A stretch of DNA of 27,186 bases from a virus, in IMG/VR virus record IMGVR_UViG_3300032288_005686, positions 1 to 27,186 of that record; one strand, written 5' to 3'. Under the pieces are notes generated by a model that was not told the DNA's origin, searched no databases, and saw only the letters and a program-made list of their open reading frames with translations. Below are positions 1 through 16,922 of this stretch, one piece after another; position 1 is the stretch's first letter, and each line of letters begins with the position of its first letter. Made by a program: the position numbers and the translations under genes.

Positions 1-770
1 GTTATATAAGGTTTAAAAACGCCTATATTCCTTTCTATTTTAAGGTTACCAATTCCCATTACATAAGGAATAGCAGATGCAAGACAAGGAGTACTTGTAC
101 AGTAAGGATAAGTACCATGATTTATATCTAACATAGTACCTTGAGCGCCTTCAAATATTACATTTTTAGCATTTTTAATTATATCGAGTATTAATTCACG
201 TTTTAATAAAACTACGTTTTTAAATTCCATTAATGATATTAATTTTTTAGTTTCATTTATATTTTCTTCAAGGTACTGTTCGTCTATATGATGTAATTTA
301 AAATAAGTTTGTATTTTGGTTTTTTCATCATGATCCATGATATCTTTAATAGTAATTGCAGTTCTACTTACAAACGATGCTGTTGCTGGTCCAATACCAC
401 TTTTGGTAGTACCAATATTTAGAATTGCATCATTTAATTGGTCTTGCATTTTATGCATAGGTAAGATTACAGAACAATTTGTATCTACAATAATAGTAGG
501 AGTGAATGCTTCTTGCTTTAGATAATTGATTTCTTCAATTAATTTACCTAAATCAATTAAACAGTTTCCTGTAATTACAACTTCTTTTGAGCGTAATGCA
601 CCAGAAGGAATAAGTTTTAATTTGTATTGTTTTTTATTTACTTGAATTGTATGTCCTGCATTTGGACCACCAGACCATCTGATAACTAATGATTCTTCAT
701 CAGAGTAAAAGTCTGTTATTTTTCCTTTACCTTCGTCACCAAATTGAGCACCTGTAATTGCAGTAATCAT
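1..770 (-). CDS. purA: Adenylosuccinate synthetase (PurA family), 3' end outside window
   Basis: PurA-family enzymes join IMP and aspartate using GTP to make adenylosuccinate, the committed step to AMP. I translated the minus strand from the ATG at 770. The product opens MITAITGAQFGDEGKGKI, the GTP-binding glycine loop of the family, followed by GGPNAGHT, IGTTKSGIGPA and FEGAQGTMLDINHGTYPY, all in the family order. The frame is open to base 1, giving about 256 residues of a usual 420-430, so the C-terminus lies outside the window. The Asp of GDEGKGK, the catalytic base of canonical PurA, is present; as I recall, the 2-aminoadenine-forming PurZ enzymes replace it, so this looks like a PurA-type enzyme rather than a proven PurZ. 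The start lies 3 bases after the stop of the upstream gene, implying cotranscription. A phage copy suggests boosted adenine nucleotide supply. Confidence 0.93.
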   Translation of the reverse strand, partial: MITAITGAQFGDEGKGKITDFYSDEESLVIRWSGGPNAGHTIQVNKKQYKLKLIPSGALRSKEVVITGNCLIDLGKLIEEINYLKQEAFTPTIIVDTNCSVILPMHKMQDQLNDAILNIGTTKSGIGPATASFVSRTAITIKDIMDHDEKTKIQTYFKLHHIDEQYLEENINETKKLISLMEFKNVVLLKRELILDIIKNAKNVIFEGAQGTMLDINHGTYPYCTSTPCLASAIPYVMGIGNLKIERNIGVFKPYI

Positions 771-7242: not shown

Positions 7243-7303
7243 ACCAAGACCATTGAGATTACTCTCTAGGTTTCGGCCTTGCTTAAGGGCCTCATCAGTT
7301 GGT
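7243..7303 (-). ncRNA. Type I hammerhead ribozyme candidate (A)
   Basis: Minus-strand RNA. CUGAUGA lies at 7298-7292, stem II GGCC/GGCC at 7291-7288 and 7278-7275, then GAA at 7274-7272. Stem III closes with ACC (7271-7269) against GGU (7251-7249), with an inner GAGA-GUAA-UCUC hairpin. Cleavage is predicted after GUC, between 7248 and 7247. Open stem I pairs UUGGU (7247-7243) with ACCAA (7303-7299). All canonical core bases are present. The 5' strand of stem I overlaps the stop codon of the gene at 7303-7515. Confidence 0.85.
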
Positions 7304-7515
7304 TACCAATTAATATGATGTGTTGAGCCATCTTTGAAAATAACTTCTTCTATGTTATTTTCAATTACAATGCCATCAATGTCAAACGCCTTATTTTTTA
7401 CCAATTCAATTGTTTCTGGGGAAACAAACAATCCTTCGCTTACTACACCAAAACTATTAACAAAACCAATTAGATTTAAATCTTTATAAACTTCAACTTG
7501 TACAAATGCTTTCAT
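7303..7515 (-). CDS. Hypothetical protein, 70 aa
   Basis: Not recognised. A small soluble protein with beta-like alternation (KAFVQVEVYKDLNLIGFVNS, FDIDGIVIENNIEEVIFKDG). AGGAG lies 8 bases before the ATG at 7515. Its mRNA would be bounded by the tRNA-like element (7631-7675) at the 5' side and hammerhead A at the 3' side; the stop codon's last base is part of stem I of that ribozyme. Confidence 0.77.
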   Translation of the reverse strand: MKAFVQVEVYKDLNLIGFVNSFGVVSEGLFVSPETIELVKNKAFDIDGIVIENNIEEVIFKDGSTHHINW

Positions 7516-7573: not shown

Positions 7574-7630
7574 CCCTTTAAAACGAAAAACACCACCATT
7601 CTATTTTTAAAGTAGTTCGTTCTACTATAA

Positions 7631-7675
7631 ATCCTAATTAAGGAATCGAACCTTAACAAACCACCTGGTTAGGAT
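7631..7675 (-). ncRNA. Truncated tRNA-like element (copy 1)
   Basis: The minus strand folds into an acceptor-like stem AUCCUAA/UUAGGAU (7675-7669 with 7637-7631) stacked on a T-arm UUAAGG-UUCGAUU-CCUUAA with a canonical T-loop. A 12-base linker (7668-7657) containing GGUGG replaces the D and anticodon arms. There is no anticodon arm, so it is not a decoding tRNA. A second copy with the same 12-base linker length lies at 15871-15913. It overlaps the last three codons and stop of the upstream gene. The acceptor/T minihelix is the minimal substrate type for RNase P and CCA-adding enzymes. Confidence 0.7.
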
Positions 7676-8325
7676 ACTACCTCATATTCCCACTCAAAAT
7701 TACCCTTTACATATGAATATCGCGCGAAAAATACATCCTCCCTTAAACGCACATAAAATGCGTTTGTTTGATATTCTTCCTTGTCCTCATTTACCTGTAA
7801 TAGAATTTCATCTTCAATATGAGGAATCACATCCTTCATAGTCTCAAATTCCGTAAATTGTAATTCCATGAAAGGATTAGATTGGGATCCATTCATTGCA
7901 TCAAACAAGCCATCAAATACTTCCTTCTCCTTCTCATAGATTCCCAATTGATTTTGTTCATAGAGGATATCCATGTACTCGATATCGTTAATTAGGTCTT
8001 CAAATATTTGCGCATCATAAACTCCATAATTCTCTCCATCTTTACTTACTAATACTTTATCTTTTACATATGAACATCTAAATCCATTTTCATTTCCGAC
8101 CTCACATAAATAATATAACAATTCCTTATCTTCAAAAGACAATTTAGTTACCAAATGAGGATGACATTCCAAATATACTTCCATCTTCTTCCATACCTTT
8201 ATGTCTCTATTAAATATATTCAAAGGTAATTGTTTACTATATGCTAATACGCCATTAATATTAATTATTACTTCTACAATTGCTGGACTGTTTAAATTAG
8301 TCTCTAATAAAGTAAGATTAATCAT
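7669..8325 (-). CDS. Hypothetical protein, 218 aa
   Basis: Not recognised. A large soluble acidic protein rich in Glu, Tyr and Val; it opens MINLTLLETNLNSPAIVEVI and ends FEWEYEVVS. AAGGAG lies 10 bases before the ATG at 8325. The message would be released by hammerhead candidate B upstream. Its stop codon lies inside the acceptor stem of the tRNA-like element at 7631-7675, so 5' cleavage of that element would leave the mRNA without its stop codon. Confidence 0.8.
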   Translation of the reverse strand: MINLTLLETNLNSPAIVEVIININGVLAYSKQLPLNIFNRDIKVWKKMEVYLECHPHLVTKLSFEDKELLYYLCEVGNENGFRCSYVKDKVLVSKDGENYGVYDAQIFEDLINDIEYMDILYEQNQLGIYEKEKEVFDGLFDAMNGSQSNPFMELQFTEFETMKDVIPHIEDEILLQVNEDKEEYQTNAFYVRLREDVFFARYSYVKGNFEWEYEVVS

Positions 8326-9304: not shown

Positions 9305-9362
9305 GGAAGACCATCGGGTTACCCCTAGGTTTCGTCTGGCCCCCGCCAGACTCATCAGTCCC
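9305..9362 (-). ncRNA. Type I hammerhead ribozyme candidate (C)
   Basis: Minus strand. CUGAUGA (9358-9352), perfect 7-bp stem II GUCUGGC/GCCAGAC with GGGG loop (9351-9334), GAA (9333-9331). Stem III closes ACC/GGU with inner GGG-GUAA-CCC, mirroring candidate A. Cleavage is predicted after GUC, between 9309 and 9308. Stem I pairs UUCC (9308-9305) with GGGA (9362-9359). The element begins immediately after the stop codon (9363-9365). Core bases are all canonical. Confidence 0.87.
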
Positions 9363-9784: not shown

Positions 9785-9853
9785 AAAAACATACATAGGG
9801 GGCAACTAAAATACTTAAAAATAAATTTAAATACTTTAACAGCCCCCGATGTA
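9785..9853 (-). terminator. Terminator-like hairpin after the 1702-codon gene
   Basis: UACAU-C-GGGGGC (9853-9842) pairs with GCCCCC-U-AUGUA (9803-9792), 11 bp with one mismatch and a 38-base AT-rich loop, followed by UGUUUUU. The long loop makes it less typical, and no promoter motif follows it, so read-through into the 9752 gene is likely. Confidence 0.6.
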
Positions 9854-9871
9854 CAGGGGAAGACAAAAAGA

Positions 9872-12800
9872 CTATAGACTGCCTTCTTCAGTAAACTCTA
9901 ACTTCAATGAAGGTCGGGTAAAGTAGAACGCAAAAGGAGAATTAACCAATGATTCATTACCGTATTTCTTGTAATGAATTAGACTCAGACAAGCTCTTAG
10001 TTCTTTAGAACCGGATTTGTTGATTAAGCCTTTCATACAATTATCTACGATAGCTGGATCCATTCCGTTCCACTTCTTAATCCCTAGGCCTATTTCTAAA
10101 TTCGTTAAGAATCTGGAATTCAAACCTAAGAAATTCAAAATATAAATTCCCGCTTCTAGACCTGCAAGATCTATCGCAGTTGTATACATTTGTGCCATAG
10201 AGACACTCTTGTGATACACGATAGATTGTTCAAAAGGAGAATATGCTGTAGAAGCTTTGAATTTCTGATATTCAGTTACTTTTTCTGCTTTCTTGTAGGT
10301 TTGACTATAGCCTGAATCAGGTCTATAATTGTCATTTCTACCAAAAGCGATAGGTTGACCGAATATTTGGGCTGCCAAAAGTTGAACAGAATGTGGATAG
10401 AGATTATTTAAAATTTCATCAAAATTGTCAGAACCTTGCAATGGCGCATTCATAGGTATACCTAATGAATCATGCGCAGCTTTTCTGAATAATTGAACCA
10501 TGTTGAAACCTTTATTCTCTCTTCTCTTTTTCTCAAACATGTTTTCCAAAAGAAAACAATAAGGGACGAATACGGCTCTGTCATATTCCATATCTTCCCC
10601 TCTGTATTTCTTTGTACTTTTTGTTTTGAGTTCAAAAGAGACTGAATGGATCAAGTCTAATGCTCTTAATAAATCACTACCTTTCAGTAGTTCATAAGAG
10701 GCATAATCTTGATTCTTCATATCCACACAAGACAACTTGAACATTCTCTTCTTGCTAGTCACCTCTTTATCTCCATATTCTATAAATACACCGTCATCTG
10801 GCGTACCTACAACCTTATTAATCTGGTTGAGGGAGATGATTTGACCAAAACCGAAATTAAGATCAAGTGCGATGTATTTTTGTATTTCTATTCCTTGTCT
10901 TTGCAGATGCTTGGTCATGAGACTAAAGTACTGCACCCATTCCTCGGACCTTTTAATTCTTCCTTCTACCGCGCTTACAACTTTCTCTAGTTTGATAGAT
11001 AAGTTGGTACCACAAAGTAGTAAGCCACCAATTATCTCCGCCCAAAATTCCCAAGCAAAATTAAAATTAGCTCTTGGATTTAGAGCTTTCTCAGAGATCC
11101 ACTCTCTGCCTCCCCAAACTTTAATTTCCTTAATTACCAATCCCTTGTTTTTCTCTACTTGCTCTTTACCAAAGAACTTCATCCCCATTTCTAAGCGGTC
11201 GATAAAGGTTAGACAAGATTCGACATCAGACCATCTTTCATCTTTTTGAGCTTTTAACTCATGAGAAAGATTTGCATTTTTGTCATCGAGGAGAAGTTGA
11301 ATCATTGATAGCTTGAATTCATTCCTCCAGCCAGCGATTACTTCTTCGCTAAAAGCATTCTTTACATCATTGAATTTCTCAATAATGAAAGGTAAGAAGT
11401 ATTCATTTTGGAAATCTACTCTTTCAGAGTTCTTTGCAGACTCCGAAATAGCTTCTAAACAATCCGCTAAGAATTCTACAAAGAGGTCTTTTTTATCTTC
11501 CTCAATAACTATCTTGTTTTGATAGTATTTCGCCGCAGCAAATTTTACTGCATTCTCGAATTGATTCAGATATAAAGCTCTTCTTTCTTGATTGACTTGA
11601 CTGTTTAGAAGGCCTTTCCAAACCCTATTGGCAAAGGCTTCTTCCCAATTCGCTAATTCACCTTCACCCTCGAACTCTTTGAAGACTGATGCAACATGTG
11701 CAATTTTTTCTCTTGCGCTCTCAACACTTGCTTGTCTAGAGGACTGTGCAGTGTTTTCTTTTGCTCTTGCCTTTAGGGCTTGAGAAATCAAGAAAGCATC
11801 AGAGAATAATCTACAATGAGAATCTGGAGTTAATTCTTTATTATCATCCAAACGGATAAGGAATTCAGAAGATTCATAAGAGTTTAAAATGTTATCTTTG
11901 ACAACTTCTCTTACCTCTCTCAAAGAAGAGATATTAGTAGAGAATTTAGTGTTGAACAAAGAGTTAAACTCCGCATCTATATGAGTTTTAACCAAACTCA
12001 TATGAGTAGGTCTCTTACAATCATCAGAAGCAGATTTCAACCATTTTAAGAGATTCTTTCTGTCCACCAGAAAATAAGAATCCATCTTATCACAAGAAGA
12101 AGACGACCAAGTTGCAATTCCTCTAACCCACTCCTTGCCATCCCTTTCCTCTCCCCCACCTTCCACCATTTTAATATTTCCATTAATCAGTTCCTCATAA
12201 ATCTCCTGCCAATCTCCCTCCGCTTTCCCTGTCCATTGTGCTAATTTGAATGCAAATAGCACAGTTTGAGACCACACCAAGGCCCCTTTTACTGTATACC
12301 CCTGATTCTCATCAGTGATTTTAACCATCATGCCAGATTCCATATCTAGCATTTCCTCTTCCTTATCCATAAAGTTCTCCTGTTCAAACCAAGTAACAAC
12401 TTCTTCTTCAGAGCTAAATTTAATCTTGTCACTTCTGAATTTATCCTCCCCCATTACGATATAGGAGATACCAGGCACAATCATCATCTTATTACCCACA
12501 CTAATAGGCCCCCTAGATAAATGCCAATATTTTAGAGATGGAATCACATAAGCGTACTTTTGCCTATCGATGAACGCTTGTTGCACATCGAAGCAAGTAT
12601 AGAAGTATCTTCTAACCCATTCTAACATCCTTACTCCACCATTAGTTCTTTCTGCCTCAAAGTAGGTGGTTGCCATGGCAGCAACGTTGGTAATACCGCC
12701 AACGTTTAATTGACCGCCATTTTTGACAGTGAGAAACATAGATAAATCCTCAATACTGTCATTGTCGTCTTGTTCCATAAATTCCAGAGCTTTCTTCATT

Positions 12801-14980
12801 TCCTTTTCTTGTTTTACCCCACTAAAAACAGAACTTTTAATTACCAACTTTTTACTCTGCTCTTTGGTTGGTCTTTCATCCCTTACGAAACCAATTAATT
12901 TAGCTATACACACCCATAGCCTATTGGTTGTAAGGATATTTCTATCACCATCATTATCCCCTGTAACGATGGCTTGCAATTCAGTGCTTACCCAAATGAT
13001 ATCATCTATCAATTGGGGAGCAATAACTGCACGATAGAAAGACTTGAAAGAGGCTATTTCGTTATCATTCATGGCCCCAAATATTACATTCCTGATTTCT
13101 TGATACTTATTCTCCAGTTTACCCTCTATTACCGCATCCCATGCATCGCGGTAATCAATGAGATGCACCAATTGGACTGAGCTTGCATCCTGATTTGGAG
13201 TACGAGTGAGACAAGCTTCTAACCATGGCTTGTCTCCAAAGTTTCTTCTCTCTTCGGGACTCCATTTTCCCAATACGACATCTCCCGCACCAAAACTCAT
13301 CATGTTTACGTATTTACTTGCACCTTTTATTTCAAAGGTGTTCACAAGATGCGCATATTTCTCCCCCTCAAGAGAGTTCATGATACCCAATAGATTAGGA
13401 CTCTCATCCAAATGGTTTTGATTTAAAATCTTAGCCAATTTAGATTCAATCCCCTTGCTCAATAAGGAGAAGAATTCATCTTTAAGAGCGTCTATTGTGT
13501 CATCGCCAGTGACATTTAAAGCTAATAACAATTGGCTAATTTGCCAGTTATTACTAGTCTTTAAATTTTGTTTGTCTTTTGCAATGATTGTGAACAACCC
13601 TTCTCTTTTGAGAATACCATCAGCTCCCAAATCTACCTTCTTTCCTTTACCCTTTAAGGTAGAAGGAGTAACCAATGCGCCTTTCCAATATTTGACGCCA
13701 TTTAATTCGATACTATAACCTCTTGAATACCTGAGGTCATTAATAAATTCCTCCAATTCCCTTTTATCTTTTTCCCCTAAATTCAAGTCCTTATAATTAA
13801 CCAAGGACAATACCCCATTTTCTTCCTTAACTAGATATGCCGATCTAGCAAGAAAACCTTTTGCAAATACACCTCTATCGATGTATCTAAACTGGTGTCC
13901 CACCTTATCTAAGACACCAACAGTTGCCAATGCCGCACCATCATTGCCTTCCCAAGGCAAGACCGCATCAGATACCAGGAATACTGGCAAATCATTCATA
14001 TATTCACAGCTCTTTAAAGCAGGAGTAGTGATGAATGACTTGAGATACCCTCTTTGTTCTGTAAAGTTATTGAAAACCTCACCAGACAAAGTTATGATAT
14101 TCTTCCATAATTCAGTAGACACATAAATTCCCTCAGCTACTGGGTGATAGCCAATCCTTGCCATAGCCTTGATGAAACCACGGCGGGTTGAAGAAGATAG
14201 ATCCATTGACACTTTTACGATGTCTTCTGGACTATAACTGATTCCAAATTTTTCCAATAGGGTAAACAAACTGGAATTCCAATCTGTTGTCCCCTTTAGA
14301 ATCACATTGAAATCATTTATTTCCTCTGTATCAAATGCCATCGCCTTTGCACTGGTCACTGATTTTGCTTTGGCTTCGGAAACCACAGCAATTTCAGCGA
14401 CAATTCTCATTCCTTTTTTATTGGATAGAGAATCTTTCAACTCATTTTTTAGTTTATTTACGAAGCTGGATCTCTTCGTTAAACCATTATGAGTCTCAAT
14501 AGTACCATTACCAGCAGAAGAAAGAGATTTTCCAACTTTTGCACCTAAAGAAAGTGCTAAGTTTAAAAACAAAGGAGAAACTCTACCAATCAATAGAGAG
14601 GTAAAGAAACTCAATCCTTTTTCTTTTCGAGCTTCAACAAAAATCTCAAGGTCACGATAGAAAAGAACCAAGCCACGAGACCACGAAGAGGTTTTGGCTC
14701 TATCTTTGCGCGCTACCAATTTGGCTTTGCGTTCAACTTTAGCTTTTGCTTTACGTTGCTTTTCAGCTTCGTAAATCGCTGTGGTTCTGGCTTTAGCTTC
14801 GATCTCTGCTCTTACTCTTGCTTCTTCATCAGCTTTGGCTTTCTTTGCTCCCTCTGCGAGTGCATTGAAAACAGCCAATTTAACCAATGCATTGTTTAAT
14901 GCACAAAAGTGGTCACTTGTACCACATCCGCTAGAAATCACTGATTTTAAATCAGCAATTAAATTTAATAAACTTTCCAT
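9872..14980 (-). CDS. Putative single-chain double-psi-beta-barrel RNA polymerase
   Basis: A 1702-residue protein, the largest in the window. Residues 675-679 read DNDGD inside VTGDNDGDRNI, matching the DxDGD metal-binding signature of two-barrel RNA polymerases (bacterial beta', QDE-1/cellular RdRP, YonO, crAss-phage polymerases). About 80 residues earlier, TRTPNQ (592-597) fits the RxP motif that precedes DxDGD in that superfamily. Residues about 44-96 are a charged Ala/Lys/Glu helix, unusual for such enzymes. I could not place the second-barrel lysines, so assignment rests on one strong and one weak motif. The ATG at 14980 follows GGAG. Two tandem GACGAGACG motifs and a 12-bp leader hairpin lie upstream. 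It could transcribe phage genes; RNA-templated activity cannot be excluded. Confidence 0.6.
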   Translation of the reverse strand: MESLLNLIADLKSVISSGCGTSDHFCALNNALVKLAVFNALAEGAKKAKADEEARVRAEIEAKARTTAIYEAEKQRKAKAKVERKAKLVARKDRAKTSSWSRGLVLFYRDLEIFVEARKEKGLSFFTSLLIGRVSPLFLNLALSLGAKVGKSLSSAGNGTIETHNGLTKRSSFVNKLKNELKDSLSNKKGMRIVAEIAVVSEAKAKSVTSAKAMAFDTEEINDFNVILKGTTDWNSSLFTLLEKFGISYSPEDIVKVSMDLSSSTRRGFIKAMARIGYHPVAEGIYVSTELWKNIITLSGEVFNNFTEQRGYLKSFITTPALKSCEYMNDLPVFLVSDAVLPWEGNDGAALATVGVLDKVGHQFRYIDRGVFAKGFLARSAYLVKEENGVLSLVNYKDLNLGEKDKRELEEFINDLRYSRGYSIELNGVKYWKGALVTPSTLKGKGKKVDLGADGILKREGLFTIIAKDKQNLKTSNNWQISQLLLALNVTGDDTIDALKDEFFSLLSKGIESKLAKILNQNHLDESPNLLGIMNSLEGEKYAHLVNTFEIKGASKYVNMMSFGAGDVVLGKWSPEERRNFGDKPWLEACLTRTPNQDASSVQLVHLIDYRDAWDAVIEGKLENKYQEIRNVIFGAMNDNEIASFKSFYRAVIAPQLIDDIIWVSTELQAIVTGDNDGDRNILTTNRLWVCIAKLIGFVRDERPTKEQSKKLVIKSSVFSGVKQEKEMKKALEFMEQDDNDSIEDLSMFLTVKNGGQLNVGGITNVAAMATTYFEAERTNGGVRMLEWVRRYFYTCFDVQQAFIDRQKYAYVIPSLKYWHLSRGPISVGNKMMIVPGISYIVMGEDKFRSDKIKFSSEEEVVTWFEQENFMDKEEEMLDMESGMMVKITDENQGYTVKGALVWSQTVLFAFKLAQWTGKAEGDWQEIYEELINGNIKMVEGGGEERDGKEWVRGIATWSSSSCDKMDSYFLVDRKNLLKWLKSASDDCKRPTHMSLVKTHIDAEFNSLFNTKFSTNISSLREVREVVKDNILNSYESSEFLIRLDDNKELTPDSHCRLFSDAFLISQALKARAKENTAQSSRQASVESAREKIAHVASVFKEFEGEGELANWEEAFANRVWKGLLNSQVNQERRALYLNQFENAVKFAAAKYYQNKIVIEEDKKDLFVEFLADCLEAISESAKNSERVDFQNEYFLPFIIEKFNDVKNAFSEEVIAGWRNEFKLSMIQLLLDDKNANLSHELKAQKDERWSDVESCLTFIDRLEMGMKFFGKEQVEKNKGLVIKEIKVWGGREWISEKALNPRANFNFAWEFWAEIIGGLLLCGTNLSIKLEKVVSAVEGRIKRSEEWVQYFSLMTKHLQRQGIEIQKYIALDLNFGFGQIISLNQINKVVGTPDDGVFIEYGDKEVTSKKRMFKLSCVDMKNQDYASYELLKGSDLLRALDLIHSVSFELKTKSTKKYRGEDMEYDRAVFVPYCFLLENMFEKKRRENKGFNMVQLFRKAAHDSLGIPMNAPLQGSDNFDEILNNLYPHSVQLLAAQIFGQPIAFGRNDNYRPDSGYSQTYKKAEKVTEYQKFKASTAYSPFEQSIVYHKSVSMAQMYTTAIDLAGLEAGIYILNFLGLNSRFLTNLEIGLGIKKWNGMDPAIVDNCMKGLINKSGSKELRACLSLIHYKKYGNESLVNSPFAFYFTRPSLKLEFTEEGSL

Positions 14981-15163: not shown

Positions 15164-15351
15164 ATGGTTACTTATTTTTTCAACATACTTGACAAATAAC
15201 TAGACGGCTAATGGTTAAGGGACAGGGCTTCAGGGTAATCACCAAGATGGTGACGGGACGATGTGCGCTTGTTAATTTCGCTAAGAGGTGTGTTATAATT
15301 AACAACTGGCACACCAATGTTGAGATTAAGATGTATTCATTTTAACTCTCT

Positions 15352-15377
15352 GGGGGTTTTGGGTTGGGGTTTTGGGG
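15352..15377 (+). repeat. G-quadruplex-forming tract (G5T4G3T2G4T4G4)
   Basis: Four runs of at least three G separated by 2-4 T on the plus strand; in leftward transcripts the RNA is the C-rich strand. The TTTTGGGG units resemble ciliate telomere repeats by composition only. Confidence 0.7.
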
Positions 15378-15475
15378 TTTTTGAATAACAGGAATTACAC
15401 CTGTACTTTGACGCTGATTTCCTATTAAGTTAGGACGAATCAATTTTGTGGCGCATAACAGCCTACCTTTCTCTG

Positions 15476-15808: not shown

Positions 15809-15870
15809 GATATTGATCCTTTCAATGGGAGTTGGAGGGAAGGGTTGCTATAGCTTGTTGCAACCTTAAT

Positions 15871-15913
15871 GTCTTAAATGAGAATCGAACTCATTTTAAA
15901 TCACCAGAAAGAC
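15871..15913 (-). ncRNA. Truncated tRNA-like element (copy 2)
   Basis: Minus strand: GUCUU (15913-15909) pairs with AAGAC (15875-15871); T-arm AAAUGAG-UUCGAUU-CUCAUUU (15896-15876) has the same T-loop as copy 1. The 12-base linker (15908-15897), UCUGGUGAUUUA, matches copy 1's linker at CNGGUGRUUU. Total helix is 12 bp. No anticodon arm. It sits in a gene leader, 11 bases past the promoter motif. Confidence 0.65.
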
Positions 15914-15923
15914 CGGGGTTTTT

Positions 15924-15935
15924 CGTCTCGTCATT
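15924..15935 (-). promoter_or_regulatory. GACGAGACG motif, putative phage promoter (copy 5)
   Basis: The minus strand reads TGTAATGACGAGACGAAAAA. It lies about 25 bases past the terminator at 15961-15982 and about 115 bases upstream of the 15808 start. Confidence 0.6.
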
Positions 15936-16910: not shown

Positions 16911-16922
16911 CGTCTCGTCATT
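16911..16922 (-). promoter_or_regulatory. GACGAGACG motif, putative phage promoter (copy 6)
   Basis: The minus strand reads TGTAATGACGAGACGAACTG, 13 bases past the U-tract of the terminator at 16935-17003 and 54 bases upstream of the 16857 start. Confidence 0.6.

Follow-up and report, generated by a model that had tools for sequence, protein, structure and literature searches.

Between the genes of mitochondrial transcripts, and in the t-elements of plant mitochondria, tRNAs or tRNA-like structures mark the sites of cleavage. These marks are whole tRNAs or longer and are organellar, whereas the element described here is minimal and occurs in phages. Among plant RNA viruses, tRNA-like structures of the TYMV type are found at the 3' ends of genomes, have a pseudoknotted acceptor and are aminoacylated; they share viral mimicry of tRNA with the phage element, but do not lie between the genes of a DNA phage. 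Bacterial RNase P is aided by an RCCA end on its substrates. To our knowledge a minimal tRNA mimic of minihelix form was known only as a laboratory construct and not as a natural RNA, and no description of such an element was found in a search of the open-access literature, outside of which most subscription papers and preprints lay.

Model substrates made of an acceptor stem and a T-arm are cut by bacterial RNase P, which measures 12 bp from the T-loop (PMC11143913), and according to work cited in the same source the TYMV tRNA-like structure is cut by RNase P in vitro. The phage minihelix has the same two helices, the T-loop and a distance of about 12 bp, but the model substrates are laboratory constructs with RCCA, whereas the minihelix is natural, has a D-loop-like linker and lacks RCCA. 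A second close system is mascRNA, which is produced by RNase P and RNase Z with addition of CCA and in which a pair of Gs docked in the T-loop maintains the shape (PMC11693755). Like mascRNA and menRNA, the minihelix has an acceptor stem, a T-arm and a GG opposite the T-loop, with docking predicted, and lies in a longer transcript; unlike it, these are vertebrate long non-coding RNAs with small D-like and anticodon-like arms, and the phage copies, most without any third arm, fall below the cut-off of the family (RF01684). The tRNA-like domain of tmRNA matches the T-arm of the minihelix locally, but the minihelix has neither a tag reading frame nor pseudoknots and measures 45 nt overall. The hammerheads of the same phage likewise follow stop codons within a polycistronic stretch, but cut themselves, whereas the minihelix would need host enzymes.

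The minihelix and its surroundings

The window, meaning the whole stretch of DNA that was analysed, is the IMG/VR virus record IMGVR_UViG_3300032288_005686 of 27,186 bases. Between two of its genes lies a 45-base RNA with the shape of a tRNA minus the D and anticodon arms (copy 1; Table 1). An earlier note, made from the sequence alone, had described a tRNA-like element over a stop codon, and the 7-bp stem, the GGUGG linker and the UUCGAUU T-arm were all found as described at 7675-7631 (-). The T-stem can be 6 bp, which brings the stack of acceptor and T-stem to 13 bp. In the linker an A replaces the U before the GG, a departure from the [C/A]-U-G-G-[U/C] motif of other members. The stop codon of the 218-aa ORF (TAA, 7671-7669) sits within the 5' acceptor strand, and the remark of the earlier note that a 5' cut would take away this upstream stop is borne out by the coordinates.

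The folding energy of copy 1 by itself was not significant (-12.2 kcal/mol, z -1.49, equalled by 18 of 200 shuffles). A full descriptor comprising acceptor stem, linker and T-arm matched twice in the window (27 kb) and once in a relative, against a single match in 8.3 Mb of mononucleotide-shuffled sequence. Copy 1 scored 54.5 bits with covariance model R1, of which it is one of the nine training sequences. ARAGORN found no tRNA in the window and RF00005 had no match at 7600-7700; rli43, which copy 1 matched weakly in Rfam (18.3 bits against a cut-off of 100), was dismissed as a chance match.

A second copy in the window had also been proposed, and proved genuine by both the descriptor and the covariance model, with which it scored 31.1 bits from outside the training set. 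Copy 2 (15913-15871, -) consists of GUCUU, the linker UCUGGUGAUUUA, the T-arm AAAUGAG-UUCGAUU-CUCAUUU and AAGAC. Relatives were found by terminase searches, one being IMGVR_UViG_3300021376_000069 (loci L010-L012), whose minihelix (L010, 16606-16651) occupies the position of copy 2. There it is preceded by a hammerhead and the motif TGTAATGACGAGACGA, and precedes a gene for a 110-aa protein homologous to that of the window (36% identity, E 8e-14) and the gene for a 1702-aa protein. The linker motif and loop of the two copies are alike, whereas the stem sequences are different yet pair. Searches with the 1702-aa protein, singly or as an alignment, yielded two related contigs only, and an alignment of a small protein returned the same two. 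A search by terminase alignment found 33 contigs, of which the more distant were without hammerheads, promoter-like motif or minihelix.

Several other features of this region were recorded. The motif GACGAGACG, which also precedes the relative's copy, recurs on the coding strand of the window at 16919, 15932, 15105, 15090, 8746 and 4230 (-), mostly between genes, and occurs in the related contigs G001 and G004 too; it is probably a phage promoter, and a scan with it led to no additional phages carrying the minihelix. The 1702-aa protein (window 9872-14980, -) contains TGDNDGD, has no match in Pfam or PHROGs and may be a two-barrel RNA polymerase. A non-coding stretch conserved between both phages (window 15200-15440, -; L010 17130-17330), with the T-arm-like ACAGGUGUAAUUCCUGU inside, may be another structured RNA. 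An adenylosuccinate synthetase-like gene, of the PurA/PurZ type by eye, is cut by the end of the window (3-770, -).

Hammerheads were identified through their conserved core and stems, and there are six in the 27 kb of the window, with several more in G001 and G004. Rfam supports those of the window weakly (HH9, 20.4 bits, E 0.93) and had nothing for the core at 9358. The hammerhead core CUGANGA...GAAA is absent from 7631-7675 and present in other gaps of the window. The earlier suggestion that the minihelix occupies the place of the hammerheads holds for two gaps, in which cores with an open stem I (7298-7271 and 9358-9330) lie 4 nt past their stop codons; the other four cores (18359, 17631, 17068 and 16079, all on the - coding strand) have a closed stem I and are located before genes. 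Since stem I of the two open hammerheads starts right after a stop, minihelix and hammerhead occupy the same kind of place. Comparison of the related phages revealed no gap with a hammerhead in one relative and a minihelix in another.

Table 1. Coordinates of the minihelices and adjoining features in the window
Feature	Position	Strand	Basis
Minihelix, copy 1	7631..7675	-	sequence, descriptor scan with shuffled control, covariance model
Copy 1, 5' acceptor strand ATCCTAA (AUCCUAA)	7675-7669	-	sequence
Copy 1, linker CCAGGTGGTTTG (RNA form CCAGGUGGUUUG), 12 nt, containing GGUGG, D-loop-like GG	7668-7657	-	sequence
Copy 1, 5' T-stem strand TTAAGG	7656-7651	-	sequence
Copy 1, T-loop TTCGATT (UUCGAUU), 7 nt	7650-7644	-	sequence
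Copy 1, 3' T-stem strand CCTTAA	7643-7638	-	sequence
Copy 1, whole T-arm UUAAGG-UUCGAUU-CCUUAA	7638..7656	-	sequence
Copy 1, 3' acceptor strand TTAGGAT (UUAGGAU), no CCA encoded behind	7637-7631	-	sequence
Small hairpin AGUAG-AACGAA-CUACU directly 3' of copy 1	7611..7626	-	sequence
Upstream gene, 218-aa ORF, no known family	7669..8325	-	ORF list
Downstream gene (70 aa) with a hammerhead behind it	7303..7515	-	ORF list
Hammerhead core, stem I beginning directly after stop codon 7305-7303	7271..7298	-	core and stems
Hammerhead core, stem I beginning directly after stop codon 9365-9363	9330..9358	-	core and stems
Minihelix, copy 2	15871..15913	-	descriptor scan, covariance model
Hairpin GGUUGC...GCAACC, a few nt beyond the 3' end of copy 2	15843..15865	-	sequence
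Promoter-like motif GACGAGACG about 10 nt before copy 2	15924..15932	-	motif

Recurrence and conserved pairing among phages

IMG/VR was scanned with a pattern in which the linker core and the T-loop were fixed and the stems were free; a U before the GG was demanded, so copy 1 itself could not match. The 48 unique sites, including the window's own, fell into two classes, 29 with a T-stem and the others without, the latter being chance matches. An acceptor stem, for which the pattern had not asked, was present with 5 bp or more at 28 of the 29 T-stem sites (3 of them known beforehand), against 16% in a control in which the 5' and 3' flanks were exchanged between sites. A second linker pattern, ATGGTACAT, added eight new contigs, five of which had matches in the whole-record search.

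The homologue search that had been recommended was carried out with a covariance model trained on nine sequences, with the contigs from the terminase search as negative background. Copies were found across some 25-30 phage contigs, at 1-4 per whole contig and in nearly all of the structured contigs, and there was no match at E up to 1, on the model's rough scale of E-values, in the terminase-relative contigs L022-L048. On the alignment 95.9% of cells were paired and 249 were changed on both sides, as against a shuffled mean of 76, in a set where members of one lineage are not independent. As an alignment fitted to the model leans towards structure, the flank-swap on the acceptor stems is the cleaner test. 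A lack of conserved pairing had been named in advance as the outcome that would speak against the element; the pairing is instead conserved, in related and unrelated phages alike, through two-sided changes. The same tRNA-like shape recurs between the genes of many unrelated phages, and copies may stand in successive gaps between small genes, with four in L117, five in L177 and at least three in L114. In the last of these contigs a tRNA-Leu-like gene (9838-10234) is seemingly interrupted by an insert, probably an intron, that carries an HNH-like reading frame.

Anatomy was compared across 45 parsed members. The linker is mostly 12-14 nt long and carries the motif [C/A]-U-G-G-[U/C], of which the C/A position lay outside the search pattern; UUCGAUU is the T-loop in 41 of 45 and is largely fixed by the search patterns. 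GG and T-loop are present in all members, GG having been demanded by both pattern and parser. Linker and loop being partly set in this way, the conservation of both is overstated. GG was also found where it had not been demanded, in the first three copies from the descriptor scan and in seven extra copies (L114, L117 and L098). The linker GG, which the earlier note had likened to G18-G19 of tRNA, has a D-loop-like setting in this motif. No member has a CCA encoded after the acceptor, the 3' RCCA of RNase P substrates being absent, and there is no constant first pair or discriminator base across the parsed members, although the base behind the acceptor is most often A.

No Rfam family covers the minihelix. 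The nearest is mascRNA-menRNA, to which the copy of phage Syn5 scored 23.4 bits (E 0.012) where the gathering cut-off is 42.5 bits, and to which copy 1 of the window had no match. Matches to tmRNA (RF00023) were below the cut-off and either concerned the T-arm or skipped most of the model; no full match with a tag frame was found. As in minimal substrates of RNase P, a stack near 12 bp is capped by a T-loop: acceptor and T-stem together make 11-13 bp in 41 of the 45 members, near the 12-bp ruler of tRNA.

Gene ends, capsid genes and rRNA spacers

With gene ends defined by the plain ORFs of metagenomic contigs, 19 of the 42 copies from phages lay between -13 and +7 nt from an upstream stop on the same strand, where random placing would give 2.1. 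In copy 1, L063, L197, L201 and nine cyanophage sequences the 5' strand contains or overlaps a stop codon. Behind the element, hairpins within 35 nt on the 3' side were enriched over shuffles, with 38% of members at p<=0.05, compared to 13% for the next 35 nt.

Among isolates, the minihelix stands just before the major capsid gene in Synechococcus phage S-TIP37 (L091), Syn5 and S-TIP28. At the same capsid position an acceptor stem and T-arm are present in S-RIP1, P-SSP7, S-CBP3, S-SBP1 and an uncultured relative, where a further hairpin is added or the linker differs. In all nine T7-like cyanophage sequences that have a small ORF with YRGxxY near its end, the stop of this ORF is inside the element, in seven of them at acceptor base 3-4; a stop at this cyanophage-type position is less strongly enriched over all parsed phage members, with 8 of 42 against 1.9 expected. 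Where the UGGY linker is missing (P-SSP7, S-CBP3, S-SBP1 and AP013538) the T-loop starts with UGC, not UUC, which would fit a linker that contacts the T-loop, in cases that are few and related. In the capsid leaders (L213-L224) the small conserved ORF, which ends near YRGxxYKK, is followed by a second conserved stretch before the capsid gene, and a Glutamine-II riboswitch aptamer (48.1 bits; L221, 20522-20575) lies before the capsid gene of P-SSP7.

Cellular copies were few. Scanned with the pattern, 84,980 genomes of bacteria and archaea gave 34 sites, most of them unstructured, the clear ones being in one phage-like contig (L177) and a Maribellus rRNA spacer. In the rRNA operons of a few members of one Bacteroidota family (L184, L190-L196) the minihelix lies between tRNA-Ala and 23S with a hairpin behind it. 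The covariance model yielded almost no further matches in about 690 genomes of two phyla, with limited candidates from each.

The minihelix as a candidate processing mark

With a probability of about 0.58, the minihelix is a natural minimal substrate of RNase P and/or RNase Z and serves as punctuation in the polycistronic transcripts of phages. Lying between phage genes, often over or behind a stop, it would be recognised in the polycistronic transcript by the tRNA-maturation nucleases of the host, and the UGGU of the linker would imitate a D-loop and dock into the T-loop of the 11-13 bp stack. RNase P at the 5' side, RNase Z at the 3' side, or both, would then cut, in parallel to the self-cleaving hammerheads in neighbouring gaps of the same phage, and the cut may serve to separate mRNAs with structured ends. 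The minihelix is taken as a cutting mark for tRNA nucleases because bacterial RNase P cuts model substrates of this build and because mascRNA, itself a product of RNase P and RNase Z, is the family nearest to the Syn5 copy. The rRNA-spacer copies count for this reading too, since tRNA nucleases act there. Against it count the lack of an encoded RCCA and of a constant first pair or discriminator, the close relative G004, which has no minihelix at the place of copy 2, and the roughly half of all copies that are not beside a recognised stop codon. That cleavage at the 5' side would remove the upstream stop, as in copy 1 and the copies of several other phages, counts against it as well; a stop within the 5' strand speaks for a cut at the 3' side, by RNase Z, or for one delayed until the ribosomes have left. 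More tentatively, the minihelix may represent an unnamed class of RNAs that borrows the tRNA-processing enzymes of the host for a ribozyme-like role, with the stop in the acceptor meaning that translation would keep the element unfolded and so time the cut.

The same stops bear on the possibility that transcripts are ended otherwise, by termination, exonuclease trimming or other nucleases, and that the minihelix is an exonuclease-resistant tRNA-like 3' end which may receive CCA. Stops that overlap or fall within the 5' strand, and would be lost through cleavage on that side, would then be left intact, just as the type-I hammerheads of the window remain on the upstream RNA; the explanation is nonetheless unlikely, as copy 2 and the L010 copy stand just past a promoter-like motif and far from any upstream gene end, and the rRNA spacer copies are no mRNA ends. 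Those spacer copies are equally hard to reconcile with a cis-acting structure at gene borders that is no substrate of a nuclease and would control translation termination or reinitiation or insulate the next ribosome-binding site. Copies close behind stops and a stable helix would suit such a structure, and any hairpin could partly serve, but it would leave unexplained why the element has a T-loop and a GG motif and why its stack has a tRNA-like length, and we regard it as rather improbable. A released 45-nt decoy, with a protein that binds tRNA or a defence nuclease that cuts it as its target, would fit the nearly phage-specific spread and the proximity of some copies to phage tRNA genes (L064, L087 and L106). 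It agrees poorly with the placing behind stops, with several copies per genome that each have different stems and again with the rRNA spacers, and seems very improbable. Scarcely any credit can be given to the idea of a phage attachment site or of a tRNA gene in decay: tRNAs commonly contain the T-arm sequence GGUUCGAUUCC, but the linker motif recurs and the copies adjoin genes of all kinds, and both ideas were rejected because the stems differ between copies and yet pair, with two-sided changes.

If the minihelix is indeed a substrate of the host's tRNA nucleases, phages would own a general 45-nt mark for the cutting of messages that requires no viral enzyme, and two unrelated RNA devices, the hammerhead and the tRNA minihelix, would be found in the same kind of place in one genome. 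As the minihelix stands before the capsid gene of cultivable cyanophages, this is directly testable.
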